Source of the DNA: a virus
Length of the DNA: 21,754 nucleotides
Strand: one strand, 5' to 3'
Virus record (IMG/VR): IMGVR_UViG_3300035670_001368
Coordinates: 1 to 21,754 of that record
This document shows positions 8,678 to 13,522 of this stretch, one piece after another (the first letter of the stretch is position 1; each line of letters opens with the position of its first letter). Position numbers and translations under genes: made by a program. The notes below the pieces were generated by a model. It did no database searches. It had not been told where the DNA came from and worked only from the letters and a program-made list of their open reading frames with translations.

Positions 8678-9811
8678 ATGGCAAATGAAATTTTAGATGC
8701 CTTAAATCCACTTGTGGATGGTATCAAATCAGAAATTAAGTCAGTAGATGCAAAGCTGGCTGCTGACATCGCTCAACTTAATGAGGATGCACAAAAGAAA
8801 AACGAAACAATTGGCGAACTGGCTAGCAAAGTAAAAGAAATGTCAGCTTCTGCTAATCGTTTGAAATCAGGTATTGAAAGTGAAGCTAAAAAGGATTGGT
8901 CAAATTCTGACAAGTTTAAAGCTGCAATTATGGATATTGTTGCTGAAAACTTTGACAAGATCAAATCTGAGACTGGCTTCACAGCTACTAAGGTTGTTGG
9001 TGACATGACACTCGGCAATAATTTGACCGGAACTTCACAGATCAGCTATGTTCCTTCAAATCTGCTCCGTTCTTTCTATAACCCACATCTTTATGATGTT
9101 TTCCGCATCATCCCTACCGCTACAGGTAATGTAACTTTCCCTCGTGGAAATGCTGCTGTAGGTGAAGGTTCTTTTGGTGTGCAGACTGAAGGTTTAGCAA
9201 AAGCACAAGTTGATTATGATGTAACAATGGTAAACGTTGCCGTTCCTTTCATCGCTGGTTTTGCTAAGGTTAGCCGCCAAATGCTGCAGGATCTTCCTTT
9301 CTTACAAGCTTACCTTTCTCAGTCGCTTGTTGAAGATTGGAACAGAGCGGTTAACACTCGCTTCCTGAATACTATCGCTTCCGGCTCAACTGCTCTTTCT
9401 TCTTCTGCTACAGTTAACGCTGAAAAGATGATCGATGGTGTTGCACAGCATATGGCACTTGGTTTGGGTATGCCTAACATTATCCTGACTACTCATGCTT
9501 CATGGGCAAACTTGATGAAAACTAAGCCTTCTGATTACAGCGTACCTGGTGGTGTTACTATCGGAGCAAACGGTGAAACTCGCATTGTAGGTATTCCTGT
9601 AGTGCCTCATTCTCAGGTAACACCTTCTCGCTTCTATGTTATTAATACTGAAGCATTCGGTATTGCACAGGCTTCTGCTCTTAGCGTTCGCAGCACAGAG
9701 TTTGATGATACAGATTTCCAAAAGAATCTTATTACCTATCGTGCTGAAGCTAGAATTGAGCTTCTCAGTTTCCAGCCAACTGCTGCTGTTTACGGTACAA
9801 GCGGTACTTAA
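8678..9811 (+). CDS. HK97-fold major capsid protein
   Basis: A 377-residue major capsid protein (PF05065-like). Residues 1-100 are a helical, lysine/glutamate-rich delta domain that serves as built-in scaffold and is probably removed by the protease next door. The mature fold starts around 105-130 (GDMTLGNNLTGTSQISYVPS) and includes NVTFPRGNAAVGEGSFG, KVSRQMLQDLPFLQAYLSQS, GMPNIILTTHASWANLM and the C-terminal ARIELLSFQPTAAVYG. Codon use differs from neighbours: Arg is mostly CGT/CGC and many codons end in C, which fits selection for very high expression. It is followed by a strong terminator. Confidence 0.95.
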   Translation: MANEILDALNPLVDGIKSEIKSVDAKLAADIAQLNEDAQKKNETIGELASKVKEMSASANRLKSGIESEAKKDWSNSDKFKAAIMDIVAENFDKIKSETGFTATKVVGDMTLGNNLTGTSQISYVPSNLLRSFYNPHLYDVFRIIPTATGNVTFPRGNAAVGEGSFGVQTEGLAKAQVDYDVTMVNVAVPFIAGFAKVSRQMLQDLPFLQAYLSQSLVEDWNRAVNTRFLNTIASGSTALSSSATVNAEKMIDGVAQHMALGLGMPNIILTTHASWANLMKTKPSDYSVPGGVTIGANGETRIVGIPVVPHSQVTPSRFYVINTEAFGIAQASALSVRSTEFDDTDFQKNLITYRAEARIELLSFQPTAAVYGTSGT

Positions 9812-9846: not shown

Positions 9847-9872
9847 AGCCCTCCATTTTTGGGGGGCTTTTT
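9847..9872 (+). terminator. Rho-independent terminator after capsid gene
   Basis: AGCCCTCC (9847-9854), loop ATTTTT, GGGGGGCT (9861-9868), then a T-run to 9872. The stem is 8 bp with one G-U pair. It ends transcription of the head genes directly before the glycosyltransferase cassette. Confidence 0.85.
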
Positions 9873-9873
9873 G

Positions 9874-9881
9874 TATATTTG
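9874..9881 (+). promoter_or_regulatory. -7-like box before glycosyltransferase cassette
   Basis: TATATTTG matches the Bacteroidota -7 consensus TAnnTTTG and lies two bases past the terminator T-run and four bases before the ATG at 9886. No TTTG occurs 19 bases upstream, so it is only a half match. If it is used, the transcript would start at or very near the ATG (leaderless or almost). Confidence 0.35.
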
Positions 9882-9885
9882 AATT

Positions 9886-10446
9886 ATGAAAGCAATTTGC
9901 CTTAGCCTTGCAAGCCGAAATGATAGGTGGGAATCAGCACAAAAGCAGTTCAAAGAACAAGATATAGAAGTTGAAAGATTTTTAGCCATTGATCATGAAG
10001 ATCGGTTTTTGTCTTTTAATTTATCTCAACAAGCTATATTGCAAAGCATTACAGAAAATACAATAGTTTTTGAGGATGATGTTTTATTTGTAAATAATAT
10101 GTTGAAACATATTATAAATACTGCACCTCAGGGATGGGATATACTTTATTTAAGCGGACATGTATTAGATTCATTAAAACACGTAGAAGATCATTGGTGG
10201 CGTTGTAAGCATACACATACTACACATTCTGTAATTTATACACCTAAGGCGGCAAAATATATATTAGAAAGATATGATCCTTATAAAAGCGGTATTTATG
10301 ATGATTTTCTTTTACGTGAAATACAACCTAATTTAAACGTTTATATCTGCAAACCATTTGTAACTACACAAAGACCCGGCTATTCTGATTTGTGGCAGAC
10401 AGATACCGATTACGGAATATTGCATACACAAAGCAAATTAATATGA
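9886..10446 (+). CDS. Glycosyltransferase family 25-like protein
   Basis: A 186-residue protein resembling GT25 (LPS biosynthesis and collagen galactosyltransferase group, PF01755). Key signs: ICLSLASRNDRWESAQKQF at the N-terminus, FLAIDHEDR, and V-F-E63-D64-D65-V, the metal-binding acidic motif. GWDILYLSGH and HTTHSVIYTPKAAKYILE, with a later DDFLLRE, are typical downstream family elements. It is slightly short for the family. It probably transfers a sugar from a nucleotide-sugar to a glycan in the cytoplasm. It is first of four glycosyltransferase genes; its TGA overlaps the next ATG. Confidence 0.82.
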   Translation: MKAICLSLASRNDRWESAQKQFKEQDIEVERFLAIDHEDRFLSFNLSQQAILQSITENTIVFEDDVLFVNNMLKHIINTAPQGWDILYLSGHVLDSLKHVEDHWWRCKHTHTTHSVIYTPKAAKYILERYDPYKSGIYDDFLLREIQPNLNVYICKPFVTTQRPGYSDLWQTDTDYGILHTQSKLI

Positions 10447-11177
10447 ATATTACCCATGTTACATTTAGTGATGAGAATATGTCAAAAAGTGCTATATTAT
10501 GCCGCAATAGTGCATTAAATAATGGTGCTGACATATCTATAATGTACAATAAATCGTGCTATTCTGATGAATTTAAACGCATGAATAATGATATTTTAAG
10601 CAAAGAAAGAGGTGCAGGGTATTGGTTATGGAAACCGTATATTATAGAAAAAAAATTAAGTGAATTACCTGAGAATGATATATTAGTTTATAGTGATGCT
10701 GGGGTAGAGTTTGTAAATACAATACAGTTGATAATAGAGCCTATGGATTCAGATGTTTGGCTGTTTGGAAATAACTACAGGCATTTAGATTGGTGTAAAA
10801 TGAATGTAATGGATTTTATTATACCTGATTGGATGTTTAATTATCATGAAGATTCAAGGCAAGTGCAAGCATCTGTTATTATTATAAGAAACACATTAGC
10901 GGCAAGATTGTTTGTTAGGGAATGGCTTAAATTGTGTCAAATGCCAGGATTTATAGATGATAGCGAAAGCAATGTAGATAATTATTTAGATTTTCAAGAA
11001 CATAGGCACGATCAAGCTATATTAACGTGTTTGGCATATAAATACGGAATAAAATTACATTGGTGGCCAGCACATTATAATGGAGGGCAGTTTATTTACG
11101 ACAAACATCCACAATTTAAAGATGATCATTACCCTGTAATATTTCATCATCACAGAAAACGTAATAACGAATGGTAA
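10443..11177 (+). CDS. Putative GT-A-type glycosyltransferase, unclassified
   Basis: A 244-residue protein starting at ATG 10443, which overlaps the TGA of the preceding gene. The in-frame ATG at 10392 would add 17 residues that overlap that gene and is less likely. Segment ERGAGYWLWKPYIIEKKL (55-72), followed by NDILVYSDAG (78-87), is typical of a group of poorly characterised glycosyltransferases in glycan clusters, with SDAG in place of a DXD metal motif. HRHDQAILTCLAYKYGIKL near the C-terminus fits the acceptor or catalytic helix of GT-A enzymes. Substrate unknown. Function is supported by the three flanking glycosyltransferases. Confidence 0.68.
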   Translation: MNITHVTFSDENMSKSAILCRNSALNNGADISIMYNKSCYSDEFKRMNNDILSKERGAGYWLWKPYIIEKKLSELPENDILVYSDAGVEFVNTIQLIIEPMDSDVWLFGNNYRHLDWCKMNVMDFIIPDWMFNYHEDSRQVQASVIIIRNTLAARLFVREWLKLCQMPGFIDDSESNVDNYLDFQEHRHDQAILTCLAYKYGIKLHWWPAHYNGGQFIYDKHPQFKDDHYPVIFHHHRKRNNEW

Positions 11178-11926
11178 CAAGTTTAAGCATAGGTAATGGT
11201 GGATTAGGTAGGTTTGGAAATCAGCTTTGGACTATTGCCGGAGTTATAGGTATTGCAAAACGTAATAATATAGACTTTGCTTTTCCTAAATGGGTTAATC
11301 ATGATAATGCTTTGTTTGGCGGTTTTGCTGATACAATGGAGAGGTTTTTTGTCAATAAATTGCCTGTTATACCTGATGGCAGACATTGGAATACTTACGG
11401 TTATTTTTGGGGTTATAGAGATATTGATTTGGCAAATGGTGATTGGAATATAGATGCACATCTACAAAGCCCTAAATTTTTTCAGCATTGCATAGATGAA
11501 ATAAGACATTATTTTACAATGATTAATGAGCCATATCAGAATGAGTTTTGCGCTATTCATGTAAGGGCGGGTGATTATATTGACGATCCCAATGCTTACC
11601 ATCCTAGATGCTCAAAAGAATATTATCAGGAAGCTATTAAGCTTATGCCAGAAAATACTAAATATATCGTTTTTTCAGATGATATAGAATTTGCAAAAGA
11701 AAGGTTAGGGATTGAGGCTTTATATTTATCTGGTAATTACATAGATGATTTTAGATTAATGAAGCGGTGTAAGCATTTTATTATTGCAAATAGTAGCTTT
11801 TCAGCAATGGCAGCTATATTAGCAGATCATCCAGATAAAAAGGTTATTGCACCATCTAAATGGTTTGGGTCTCATGTTGACATTTCACCAAAAGATATTT
11901 ATCATCAAAATTGGATAGTAATATGA
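11171..11926 (+). CDS. GT11 alpha-1,2-fucosyltransferase-like enzyme
   Basis: A 251-residue protein of the GT11 family (PF01531), which transfers fucose from GDP-fucose to galactose-type acceptors in an alpha-1,2 linkage. Three family motifs are seen in order: GNGGLGRFGNQLWTIAG (8-24), the Gly-rich start; H130-V-R-A-G-D-Y136, the HxRRGDY donor-binding motif; and ANSSFSAMAAIL (206-217), the usual NSTFSWW-type motif. FSDD at 168-171 and APSKWF follow the family pattern as well. It overlaps the previous gene by 7 bases and the next by 4. The acceptor is unknown; some GT11 members may use other linkages. Confidence 0.85.
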   Translation: MVTSLSIGNGGLGRFGNQLWTIAGVIGIAKRNNIDFAFPKWVNHDNALFGGFADTMERFFVNKLPVIPDGRHWNTYGYFWGYRDIDLANGDWNIDAHLQSPKFFQHCIDEIRHYFTMINEPYQNEFCAIHVRAGDYIDDPNAYHPRCSKEYYQEAIKLMPENTKYIVFSDDIEFAKERLGIEALYLSGNYIDDFRLMKRCKHFIIANSSFSAMAAILADHPDKKVIAPSKWFGSHVDISPKDIYHQNWIVI

Positions 11927-12861
11927 AAATTTTATTTAGCATTCATTTGTATTTCCCAAGACATGGCAGCGGTGCTGAAGCTATGGTAAGGAATATAAAC
12001 AGACATCTTGTAAGCAAAGGTCACGAAATAAAGATTTTGCTACATCAAGCAAATCAATATAAAATAACTGAAATGTATAATTATGAGGGTGTTGATGTAT
12101 TTCCTCCTGATGAATACATTATAGATAAGTTATTTAATTGGGCAGATGTAGTAGTTTCTCATTTAGATTACAATAAATGGACTACTCATGCTTGTGAAAA
12201 ATATAATAAGCCATTTATTCACATAGTACATAATGATACTCCTTACCCATCGGTAATAGATTCACCAATACCTTTAAAAGTTATCTATAATTCAGAATGG
12301 TGCAAAAAATCATTAAATTATAAATGGGATAGCATAGTTTTTCCTCCTCCCATTGATGAATGGGTAAAAACAGATGATAATGAAAGGGAATATATCACTT
12401 TAATAAATCTGAATCAAAATAAGGGTAGTAAGTATTTTTACAGTTTGGCTAAAAAATTACCACAATATAAATTTTTAGGAGTAAAAGGTAGTTATGATAA
12501 TCAGCATATTGAAAACTTGCCAAATGTTAAAATAATACCAAATACACCAGATATCAGGGAAGTATATAAAAAGACAAAGATTTTGTTAGTACCTAGCCAT
12601 TATGAAAGCTGGGGTATGGTAGCCGGTGAAGGCATGCTAAACGGTATACCTGTAATATATAATCCAACACCCGGATTACTTGAAAATGTAGCTGATGCAG
12701 GCATTTGCATAAACAGAAAAGAAACGCAAAAATGGATTAATGAGATTAATAAATTAATGAATGATGAAGCATATTATAAAAAATGGTCAAATAAAGGGTT
12801 GAAAAGAGCAAAAGAGCATTTTCCAAAATGGAAAGAATTAGAAGAATTTATTTGTAAATAA
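11923..12861 (+). CDS. GT4 family glycosyltransferase
   Basis: A 312-residue GT-B enzyme. The ATG at 11923 overlaps the TGA of the fucosyltransferase gene and is preferred over the TTG at 11911. The N-terminal Rossmann domain begins MKILFSIHLYFPRHGSGAE with the glycine-rich acceptor loop. The C-terminal donor-binding domain holds LNQNKGSKYF, then IPNTPDIREVYKKTKILLVP and HYESWGMVAGEGMLNGIPVI, which contains the EX7E motif (E228, E236). Retaining GT4 enzymes build LPS, capsule or glycoprotein glycans. It is the last cassette gene. A hairpin starts directly after its stop codon. Confidence 0.88.
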   Translation: MKILFSIHLYFPRHGSGAEAMVRNINRHLVSKGHEIKILLHQANQYKITEMYNYEGVDVFPPDEYIIDKLFNWADVVVSHLDYNKWTTHACEKYNKPFIHIVHNDTPYPSVIDSPIPLKVIYNSEWCKKSLNYKWDSIVFPPPIDEWVKTDDNEREYITLINLNQNKGSKYFYSLAKKLPQYKFLGVKGSYDNQHIENLPNVKIIPNTPDIREVYKKTKILLVPSHYESWGMVAGEGMLNGIPVIYNPTPGLLENVADAGICINRKETQKWINEINKLMNDEAYYKKWSNKGLKRAKEHFPKWKELEEFICK

Positions 12862-12888
12862 AAAACCCACCTGTAAAGACAGGCGGGG
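12862..12888 (-). terminator. Hairpin at cassette end with U-tract on minus strand
   Basis: CCCACCTGT (12866-12874) pairs with ACAGGCGGG (12879-12887) around the loop AAAG, with one A-C mismatch. On the plus strand it is followed by GAAATTTG, not a T-run. On the minus strand it is followed by TTTTTATTTA. As a canonical intrinsic terminator it therefore faces leftward transcription, although the stem might also slow rightward RNA polymerase or protect the 3' end of the cassette mRNA. Confidence 0.6.
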
Positions 12889-12922
12889 AAATTTGTAAAC
12901 TTAAAACCAAACTAATGATATG

Positions 12923-12930
12923 CAAATGTA
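12923..12930 (-). promoter_or_regulatory. Minus-strand -7-like box
   Basis: On the minus strand TACATTTG matches TAnnTTTG. The base 19 positions upstream does not begin a TTTG; the nearest TTTG is 14 bases away. If active it would produce a short leftward RNA ending at the hairpin 12888-12862. Chance occurrence is quite possible in AT-rich DNA. Confidence 0.2.
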
Positions 12931-12939
12931 ATTTCTTTG

Positions 12940-12968
12940 GTTGACAAATTGAATATTTTAAAGTCAAC
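12940..12968. promoter_or_regulatory. Inverted repeat GTTGAC/GTCAAC, possible operator
   Basis: GTTGAC (12940-12945) and GTCAAC (12963-12968) are perfect 6-bp inverted repeats separated by 17 bases of AT-rich DNA, 20 bases before the connector gene start at 12989. The spacing would put the half-sites about two helical turns apart on one face, as in a dimer binding site. No clear plus-strand promoter is seen nearby. Confidence 0.3.
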
Positions 12969-12988
12969 TATATTTTAATTTTACTAAA

Positions 12989-13522
12989 ATGAATAATATT
13001 TACGAAATAAAGGTTACGGATGGCTCAGAGCCTATAACTCTTGAAACCGCAAAAGATTGGCTAAGGGTTACTACAGAAGATGATGATGCTATTATAACCG
13101 ATCTTATTACCGTTGCTAGAAAGCGTATCGAGGCATATACATTACGATCATTAGTGTCAAAAAGCATAGTATTAACAGGATATTTAGAGCATGCTTTCCT
13201 TTTTCCTTATGCTCCTATTTCAAATATTAGTGCGGTTAAATATTTAAAAGGTCAAATTACAGATAGTGGCGTTAATGATTGGGATTTATTAGATGGTGAT
13301 GAATATCAGGTTATAGGATATAATGACAAGCAATTTAGACCACATTTCCCGGCAACTTATGAAATAACATATACAACTGCTGCAAATGCAGATTCAGGGC
13401 TTAAAACCGATCTAAAACGTGTTTTATTGTGGATGTACGAAAATAGAGGAGATGATACGGATGAAATGCCTGTAGAGTTAATGAGTAATGCTAAAACTTT
13501 AAAGGTTTTGACATGGGTATAG
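12989..13522 (+). CDS. Head-tail connector (gp6-like adaptor)
   Basis: A 177-residue protein of the HK97 gp6 / SPP1 gp15 connector type. The helical N-terminus (EPITLETAKDWLRVTTEDDD, then IITDLITVARKRIEAYT) is the hallmark of the family, followed by a beta-rich middle (FLFPYAPISNISAVKYLKG) and a C-terminal helix with LKRVLLWMYENRGDD. It forms a ring below the portal and starts the head-to-tail interface. It is the first structural gene after the glycosyltransferase cassette and ends in TAG, overlapping the next gene by 10 bases. Confidence 0.85.
   Translation: MNNIYEIKVTDGSEPITLETAKDWLRVTTEDDDAIITDLITVARKRIEAYTLRSLVSKSIVLTGYLEHAFLFPYAPISNISAVKYLKGQITDSGVNDWDLLDGDEYQVIGYNDKQFRPHFPATYEITYTTAANADSGLKTDLKRVLLWMYENRGDDTDEMPVELMSNAKTLKVLTWV

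Follow-up and report, generated by a model that had tools for sequence, protein, structure and literature searches.

A conserved glycosyltransferase block beside the capsid gene of uncultured siphophages is a candidate virion-glycosylation cassette

What would a siphophage do with four glycosyltransferase genes lodged among the genes for its head and tail? The question is raised by a 21,754-nucleotide stretch of viral DNA (positions 1 to 21,754 of the IMG/VR record IMGVR_UViG_3300035670_001368, hereafter the window), in which four intact glycosyltransferase (GT) genes lie head to tail, with the major capsid gene on the left and a head-tail connector gene on the right. Judging from the sequence of this locus and its relatives, we consider it fairly probable that the block is a capsid-linked virion-glycosylation cassette of cytoplasmic enzymes, with the capsid as the most likely acceptor, and its product would most likely be a short, fucose-containing sugar chain on the virus particle. 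The module also seems to be core to a large clade of uncultured phages, frequently includes a methyltransferase, and has relatives reduced to a methyltransferase plus a single GT, none of which had been noticed in an earlier, sequence-only reading of this DNA.

We number the genes GT1 to GT4 in their order on the plus strand, the last being also a member of the GT4 family. The families (GT25, unclassified GT-A, GT11 and GT4) and borders that the sequence-only reading had assigned were borne out by Pfam and by a fold model, and the motifs to which it had pointed (EDD, SDAG, HVRAGDY and EX7E) are real and kept in their respective families. GT1 (9886..10446, 186 residues; PF01755, E=1.8e-6) carries an EDD motif that is invariant in its family and passes the gathering score for GT25 (28.4 bits against a cut-off of 24 for Glyco_transf_25), a model that 14 of 18 homologs also match. 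A search with its family profile recovers mimivirus R655 (1e-10) and procollagen galactosyltransferase (4e-10), GT25 enzymes that modify proteins, and we counted this in favor of virion-protein glycosylation. GT2 (10443..11177, 244 residues) has no match in Pfam or NCBIfam, and a sequence-based structure search with it and one methyltransferase group returned chance-level matches only. The AlphaFold2 model of GT2 (predicted local distance difference test, pLDDT, 93.5) has a GT-A fold, and its matches by VIA-align are tied among BoGT6a (Z 14.5, 198 residues, 3.3 Å, 12% identity), bovine alpha-1,3-galactosyltransferase (Z 14.4, 195 residues, 3.2 Å) and PBCV-1 A64R (2p6w/2p73; Z 14.4, 178 residues, 3.0-3.2 Å, 11-12% identity), the likeness to GT6 lying in the fold at low sequence identity. 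Within the SDAG motif, D-A-G (residues 85-87) is invariant in the family and occupies the position where DXD or NXN would be expected, so the use of metal by GT2 is uncertain. A GT2-type fold also occurs within a 581-residue Hyperionvirus protein named as a methyltransferase. GT3 (11171..11926, 251 residues, HVRAGDY; PF01531, E=3.8e-22; phrog_2644) contains a Glyco_transf_11 domain scoring 79.3 bits against a cut-off of 23.9, HxRxGDY is invariant in its family, and by domain and motif it is predicted to be a GT11 enzyme of the alpha-1,2-fucosyltransferase type. GT4 (11923..12861, 312 residues; PF00534, E=5e-18; phrog_26352) was modeled with AlphaFold2 at a pLDDT of 92.5 and has GT-B/GT4 structural matches with Z up to 29.9; E-x7-E is invariant among its homologs. 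The fold matches listed for GT4 include GtfA and SdgB, which act on serine residues of proteins, but also many small-molecule and polysaccharide enzymes, and thus the fold does not fix the acceptor. All four genes are under purifying selection (median ratio of nonsynonymous to synonymous substitution rates, dN/dS, 0.07-0.11), like the structural genes. The translational coupling proposed earlier agrees with the three overlapping junctions: ATGA at 10443 between GT1 and GT2, a 7-nt overlap (ATGGTAA) at 11171 between GT2 and GT3, and ATGA at 11923 between GT3 and GT4. The true start of GT2 is the ATG at 10443, the GTG at 10392 being merely a mechanical open reading frame (ORF) start, and GT4 starts at the ATG at 11923.

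To place the block among its relatives, IMG/VR contigs were gathered via the capsid, GT2 and portal, duplicates were removed, and a locus was counted as spanning if it covered the capsid gene and reached a connector or tail gene, which yielded 49 distinct loci. The block, in full or in a reduced form of methyltransferase and GT4, is present in 45 of them: 22 have GT1-GT2-GT3-GT4, 10 have recognized methyltransferases between GT2 and GT3, and 13 have only the methyltransferase and GT4, while four lack GTs. Among contigs found through the portal, which were not selected on capsid or GT, the block is present in all 11 that span the site. The sequence-only reading had named scattered genes among relatives as evidence against its proposal; instead, wherever a spanning relative carries the block, its genes stay linked and their order does not change. 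On the strength of this survey we rejected a chance insertion or a patchy moron. GT4 is the sole GT common to every version of the module, and the number of glycan-type genes per site ranges from 2 to 6; the four steps proposed earlier therefore hold for the GTs of the window, but not for the lineage. The four GT-free loci, which have distant capsids (25-36% identity), belong to Flavobacterium phage 11b, Cellulophaga phages phi10:1 and phi17:1, and a Chitinophagaceae contig, the last of which has an empty site with a capsid-connector gap of 195 bp. The host probably belongs to the Bacteroidota, given that the capsid has its relatives in Flavobacterium phage 11b, in Cellulophaga phages and in this contig, which comes from a metagenome-assembled genome (MAG). 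A prophage origin was considered and rejected: scans of genome contigs with GT4 and the capsid alignment gave one distant, GT-free relative (the Chitinophagaceae MAG), and 395 scanned Bacteroidota genomes yielded no further capsid relative. In one contig (L028:4449-4809), a 76%-identical capsid is followed by a short lipoprotein-like ORF (LAASCCKK) in place of GT1, and the contig ends there.

The slot between GT2 and GT3, empty in the window, often holds a methyltransferase in relatives. These are S-adenosylmethionine (SAM) methyltransferases of several unrelated groups, two of which were recognized mainly by sequence and position, with no or weak Pfam support. A gene related to the methyltransferase of the reduced, class C form adjoins a GT gene in phage Phrappuccino. 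One locus (L104:2663-3256) has an MptE-like protein in the slot (PF01973, E 1.5e-11), a family that presumably includes the flagellin-glycosylating Maf proteins and would fit protein glycosylation.

The block also shares much of its history with the capsid gene. We compared median identities within class B and between it and class A, to which the window belongs. Between the classes, the capsid is 66% identical, in loci that where capsid-selected are biased towards similar capsids, and GT1-4 are 33/51/43/47% identical, whereas the flanking genes reach 25-32% (portal 32, MuF 30, protease 26, connector 29, tail tube 30). Within class B, the values are 65% for the protease, 76% for the capsid and 46-59% for the GTs, against 33% for the portal, 29% for MuF and 28% for the connector. 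Thus, the protease-capsid-GT stretch of class B is far more alike than its flanks and seems to have moved between phages as one piece. With each neighbor controlled for in a partial Mantel test, GT1 and GT2 still follow the capsid (r 0.46-0.81, p<=0.004). This association supports a virion role, without proving that the capsid is the acceptor. More tentatively, and with more doubt than confidence, the capsid and glycosylation genes might form one exchangeable unit of an uncultured Bacteroidota siphophage clade. It would comprise the capsid gene followed by those for GT25, GT-A, a methyltransferase of interchangeable kind, GT11 and GT4, or in its minimal form by those for the methyltransferase and GT4, and would pass between phages whose portals, connectors and tails are unrelated. 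The GT11 enzyme and its GT6-like partner would then give the glycan a fucosylated end of blood-group-like type. A search for GT-specific serine or threonine positions in the capsid gave a list that points to no site, as only four GT-free sequences were available. Separately, the median synonymous divergence (dS) of the capsid gene is 0.93, below that of portal, MuF, GT1, GT2 and GT4 (1.5-1.8), which suggests codon constraint or recombination.

The whole window is contained without mismatch in IMGVR_UViG_3300034073_002123, a genome of about 35.1 kb that a 127-bp end repeat marks as complete and circular. In this genome, no flippase, transporter or nucleotide-sugar gene was found, with a Pfam scan covering 10 of the larger remaining ORFs, in line with the absence of such genes reported earlier for the window. 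No integrase or other lysogeny gene was detected in it either, and an integrase search across relatives gave one match, only in a distant contig of L103. None of the four GTs has a hydrophobic or predicted membrane segment, and of the partners expected in gtr and surface-glycan modules, neither a membrane GT nor a flippase is seen here. The lack of membrane segments, flippase and lysogeny genes supports a cytoplasmic route to the virion, for which we infer the acceptor, order of steps, sugars and benefit as follows. The four GTs would be made late in infection as one cassette of soluble cytoplasmic enzymes drawing on host nucleotide sugars, namely GDP-fucose for the GT11 enzyme and UDP- or GDP-sugars for the other three. 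They would transfer these sugars straight onto a structural protein of the phage, forming a short glycan that is branched or capped; the likeliest acceptor is the product of the major capsid gene immediately upstream, with the tail tube as a possible second one. GT4 may act first, given that it is the only GT common to all versions of the module, and the methyltransferase of relatives would O-methylate the glycan. The benefit may be a shielded or altered particle surface.

To our knowledge, only a handful of phages, most of them infecting mycobacteria, have been shown to glycosylate their virions with enzymes of their own; outside the phages, the main example is that of giant algal viruses. 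As in phages of the Corndog, Che8 and Myrna kind, the GTs of the window are linked to head/tail structural genes. Corndog carries an O-methyltransferase (gp35) and GTs (gp36-gp38) among its head genes (PMC4351075), and its capsid and tail tube are reported to be glycosylated (Freeman et al. 2023, pmid 37329881, as cited in PMC12363180 and PMC11600133). The two phages share several tandem GTs within the head-gene region, with donors presumed to come from the host. The Corndog module includes a methyltransferase as well; the window has none, and in many relatives a SAM methyltransferase that may act on the sugar lies at the corresponding site. They differ in that the Corndog genes lie between portal and protease rather than between capsid and connector, the host phylum is another, and the window's set includes a GT11. 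PBCV-1 decorates its major capsid protein with a fucose-containing, O-methylated glycan made by cytoplasmic enzymes that it encodes (PMC7826918). Its A064R and A111/114R likewise are virus-encoded cytoplasmic GTs with a methyltransferase, and the GT2 fold matches the A064R domain as given above; however, PBCV-1 is a eukaryotic giant virus with multidomain enzymes and an N-linked glycan, and the likeness is of fold only. The only cultured-phage match of GT4 is gp20 of Streptomyces phage TurkishDelight (29% identity over 95% of the query), which similarly lies between capsid and major tail genes, but in that phage there is a tandem double GT4, the host is actinobacterial and no adjoining GT25 or GT11 is annotated. 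Cellulophaga phages phi17:1 and phi18:1 resemble the window in carrying a GT and a SAM methyltransferase in the structural region of a Bacteroidota phage, except that their GT is of the TOD1/MUCI70 family and lies between MuF and protease. In phi17:1 (L114:2124-3796), the TOD1/MUCI70 GT and Methyltransf_24 genes are possibly an independent virion-modification pair.

A strong, intrinsic-terminator-like hairpin with a T-run follows the capsid gene (9847..9868, plus strand), and another lies 3' of GT4 (12866..12887, with its T-run on the minus strand). The sequence-only reading had put the block inside the structural operon; its position among the head-tail genes stands, but with hairpins on both sides it is bracketed rather than simply continuous with the capsid message. 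Of 78 distinct relatives, 75 have a comparable hairpin and T-run after the capsid gene, among them GT-free phages, and the GTs are therefore probably made at a lower level than the capsid, by read-through or from a weak promoter. A possible promoter of the block is TATATTTG (9874..9881, plus strand), which matches the Bacteroidota -7 element (TAnnTTTG) and is kept in close relatives. As evidence for a Bacteroidota promoter 5' of GT1 this is weak, since the window has the pattern no more often than expected by chance and no -33 element was seen. In several relatives (e.g. L045, L051 and L047), GT4 overlaps the start of the connector gene, from which it would follow that the block is expressed with the head-tail genes; this overlap and the post-capsid hairpin both fit late expression. 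In close relatives, a conserved inverted repeat, GTTGACAAATT...GTCAAC (window 12940-12988), lies 5' of the connector gene and may be an operator or late promoter.

The sequence-only reading had left a virion glycan and a host-surface glycan side by side. We favor the virion on account of position, co-inheritance with the capsid gene and precedent, short of proof, and regard it as unlikely, though deserving real weight, that the enzymes remodel a host surface glycan (lipopolysaccharide, LPS, or a Bacteroidota protein O-glycan) and so block adsorption of rival phages or re-adsorption of virions. GT11, GT25 and GT4 enzymes are common in surface-glycan loci, and a distant GT2 relative lies among flippase-, polymerase- and NeuB-like genes in a locus resembling those for O-antigen. 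Moreover, methyl groups are frequent on Bacteroidota O-glycans (PMC12871550), fucosyltransferases are important in them (PMC8698959), and LPS modification has been proposed for the phi18:1 GT (PMC11946311). Against this, no membrane protein, flippase or ligase was seen in the complete genome, nor any lysogeny gene, and the position beside the capsid gene is fixed across divergent phages with a history shared with the capsid. The bracketing hairpins, the promoter-like TATATTTG beside the start and the slightly higher A+T content of the block than of its flanks could instead mark a moron-like accessory cassette that carries transcription signals of its own and serves another use, such as host-protein modification. 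Moron-type cassettes are usually patchy among close relatives, whereas this block is in all spanning close relatives in unchanged order and under constraint like that of structural genes, and the post-capsid hairpin exists in GT-free phages too; we judge such a cassette quite improbable. Still further from the evidence is a T4-like glycosylation of hypermodified phage DNA, for which GT1 weakly matches phrog_2835, named a glucosyltransferase: no nucleotide-hypermodification gene is among the annotated genes of the complete genome, the GT families act on protein or glycan, and the block sits in the head-gene cluster, making this explanation extremely improbable.

Several observations nevertheless weigh against a virion-glycosylation cassette tied to its capsid. 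GT3 and GT4 track the capsid and also portal or tail-tube genes, so that the idea of GTs tracking the capsid only fails for these two, and linkage alone could co-transfer neighboring genes and give part of the capsid-GT association. Two GT-bearing groups (L103 and L107) have unrelated-looking capsids (29-33% identity), which shows that the GTs can accompany more than one capsid sequence. Ordinary Bacteroidota genomes contain distant relatives of GT2, and one of the two neighborhoods read (L171) is a polysaccharide locus. Finally, not every gene at the site belongs to a glycan path, since the GT2-GT3 slot takes N6/N4 DNA methylases (L029, 10483-11091, and by sequence grouping L045) and the block takes homing endonucleases (GIY-YIG between GT1 and GT2 in L035:3174-3857; NUMOD4/HNH between GT3 and GT4 in L106:2400-2900).

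The surroundings of the block are those of a siphophage head-tail cluster, with terminase, portal, MuF, protease, capsid, connector, neck, tail tube and tape measure genes in the window. The left border is the major capsid protein of HK97 fold (8678..9811, plus strand; PF05065, E=5.5e-15; phrog_10; alignment), and the right border is the gp6-like head-tail connector (12989..13522, plus strand; PF05135, E=1.2e-8; phrog_442). Elsewhere in the 35.1-kb genome, the larger genes code for a BT4734-like primase, a GH19 lysin and a phosphoesterase, alongside tail-side proteins without an assignment. In the complete genome, two proteins on the tail side (L116:12970-15551) start with signal-peptide-like stretches, and one of them weakly matches an arabinofuranosidase model (E 9e-5).

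Overall, a conserved, modular glycosylation cassette appears to be core to a large uncultured group of Bacteroidota phages and to be inherited with the adjoining capsid gene. The variants of the site, with their 2 to 6 genes and several kinds of methyltransferase, would then allow testing of which enzyme adds which sugar and of the purpose of the coat. If virion glycosylation is indeed the role of this cassette, glycosylated capsids would be much commoner in nature than thought.

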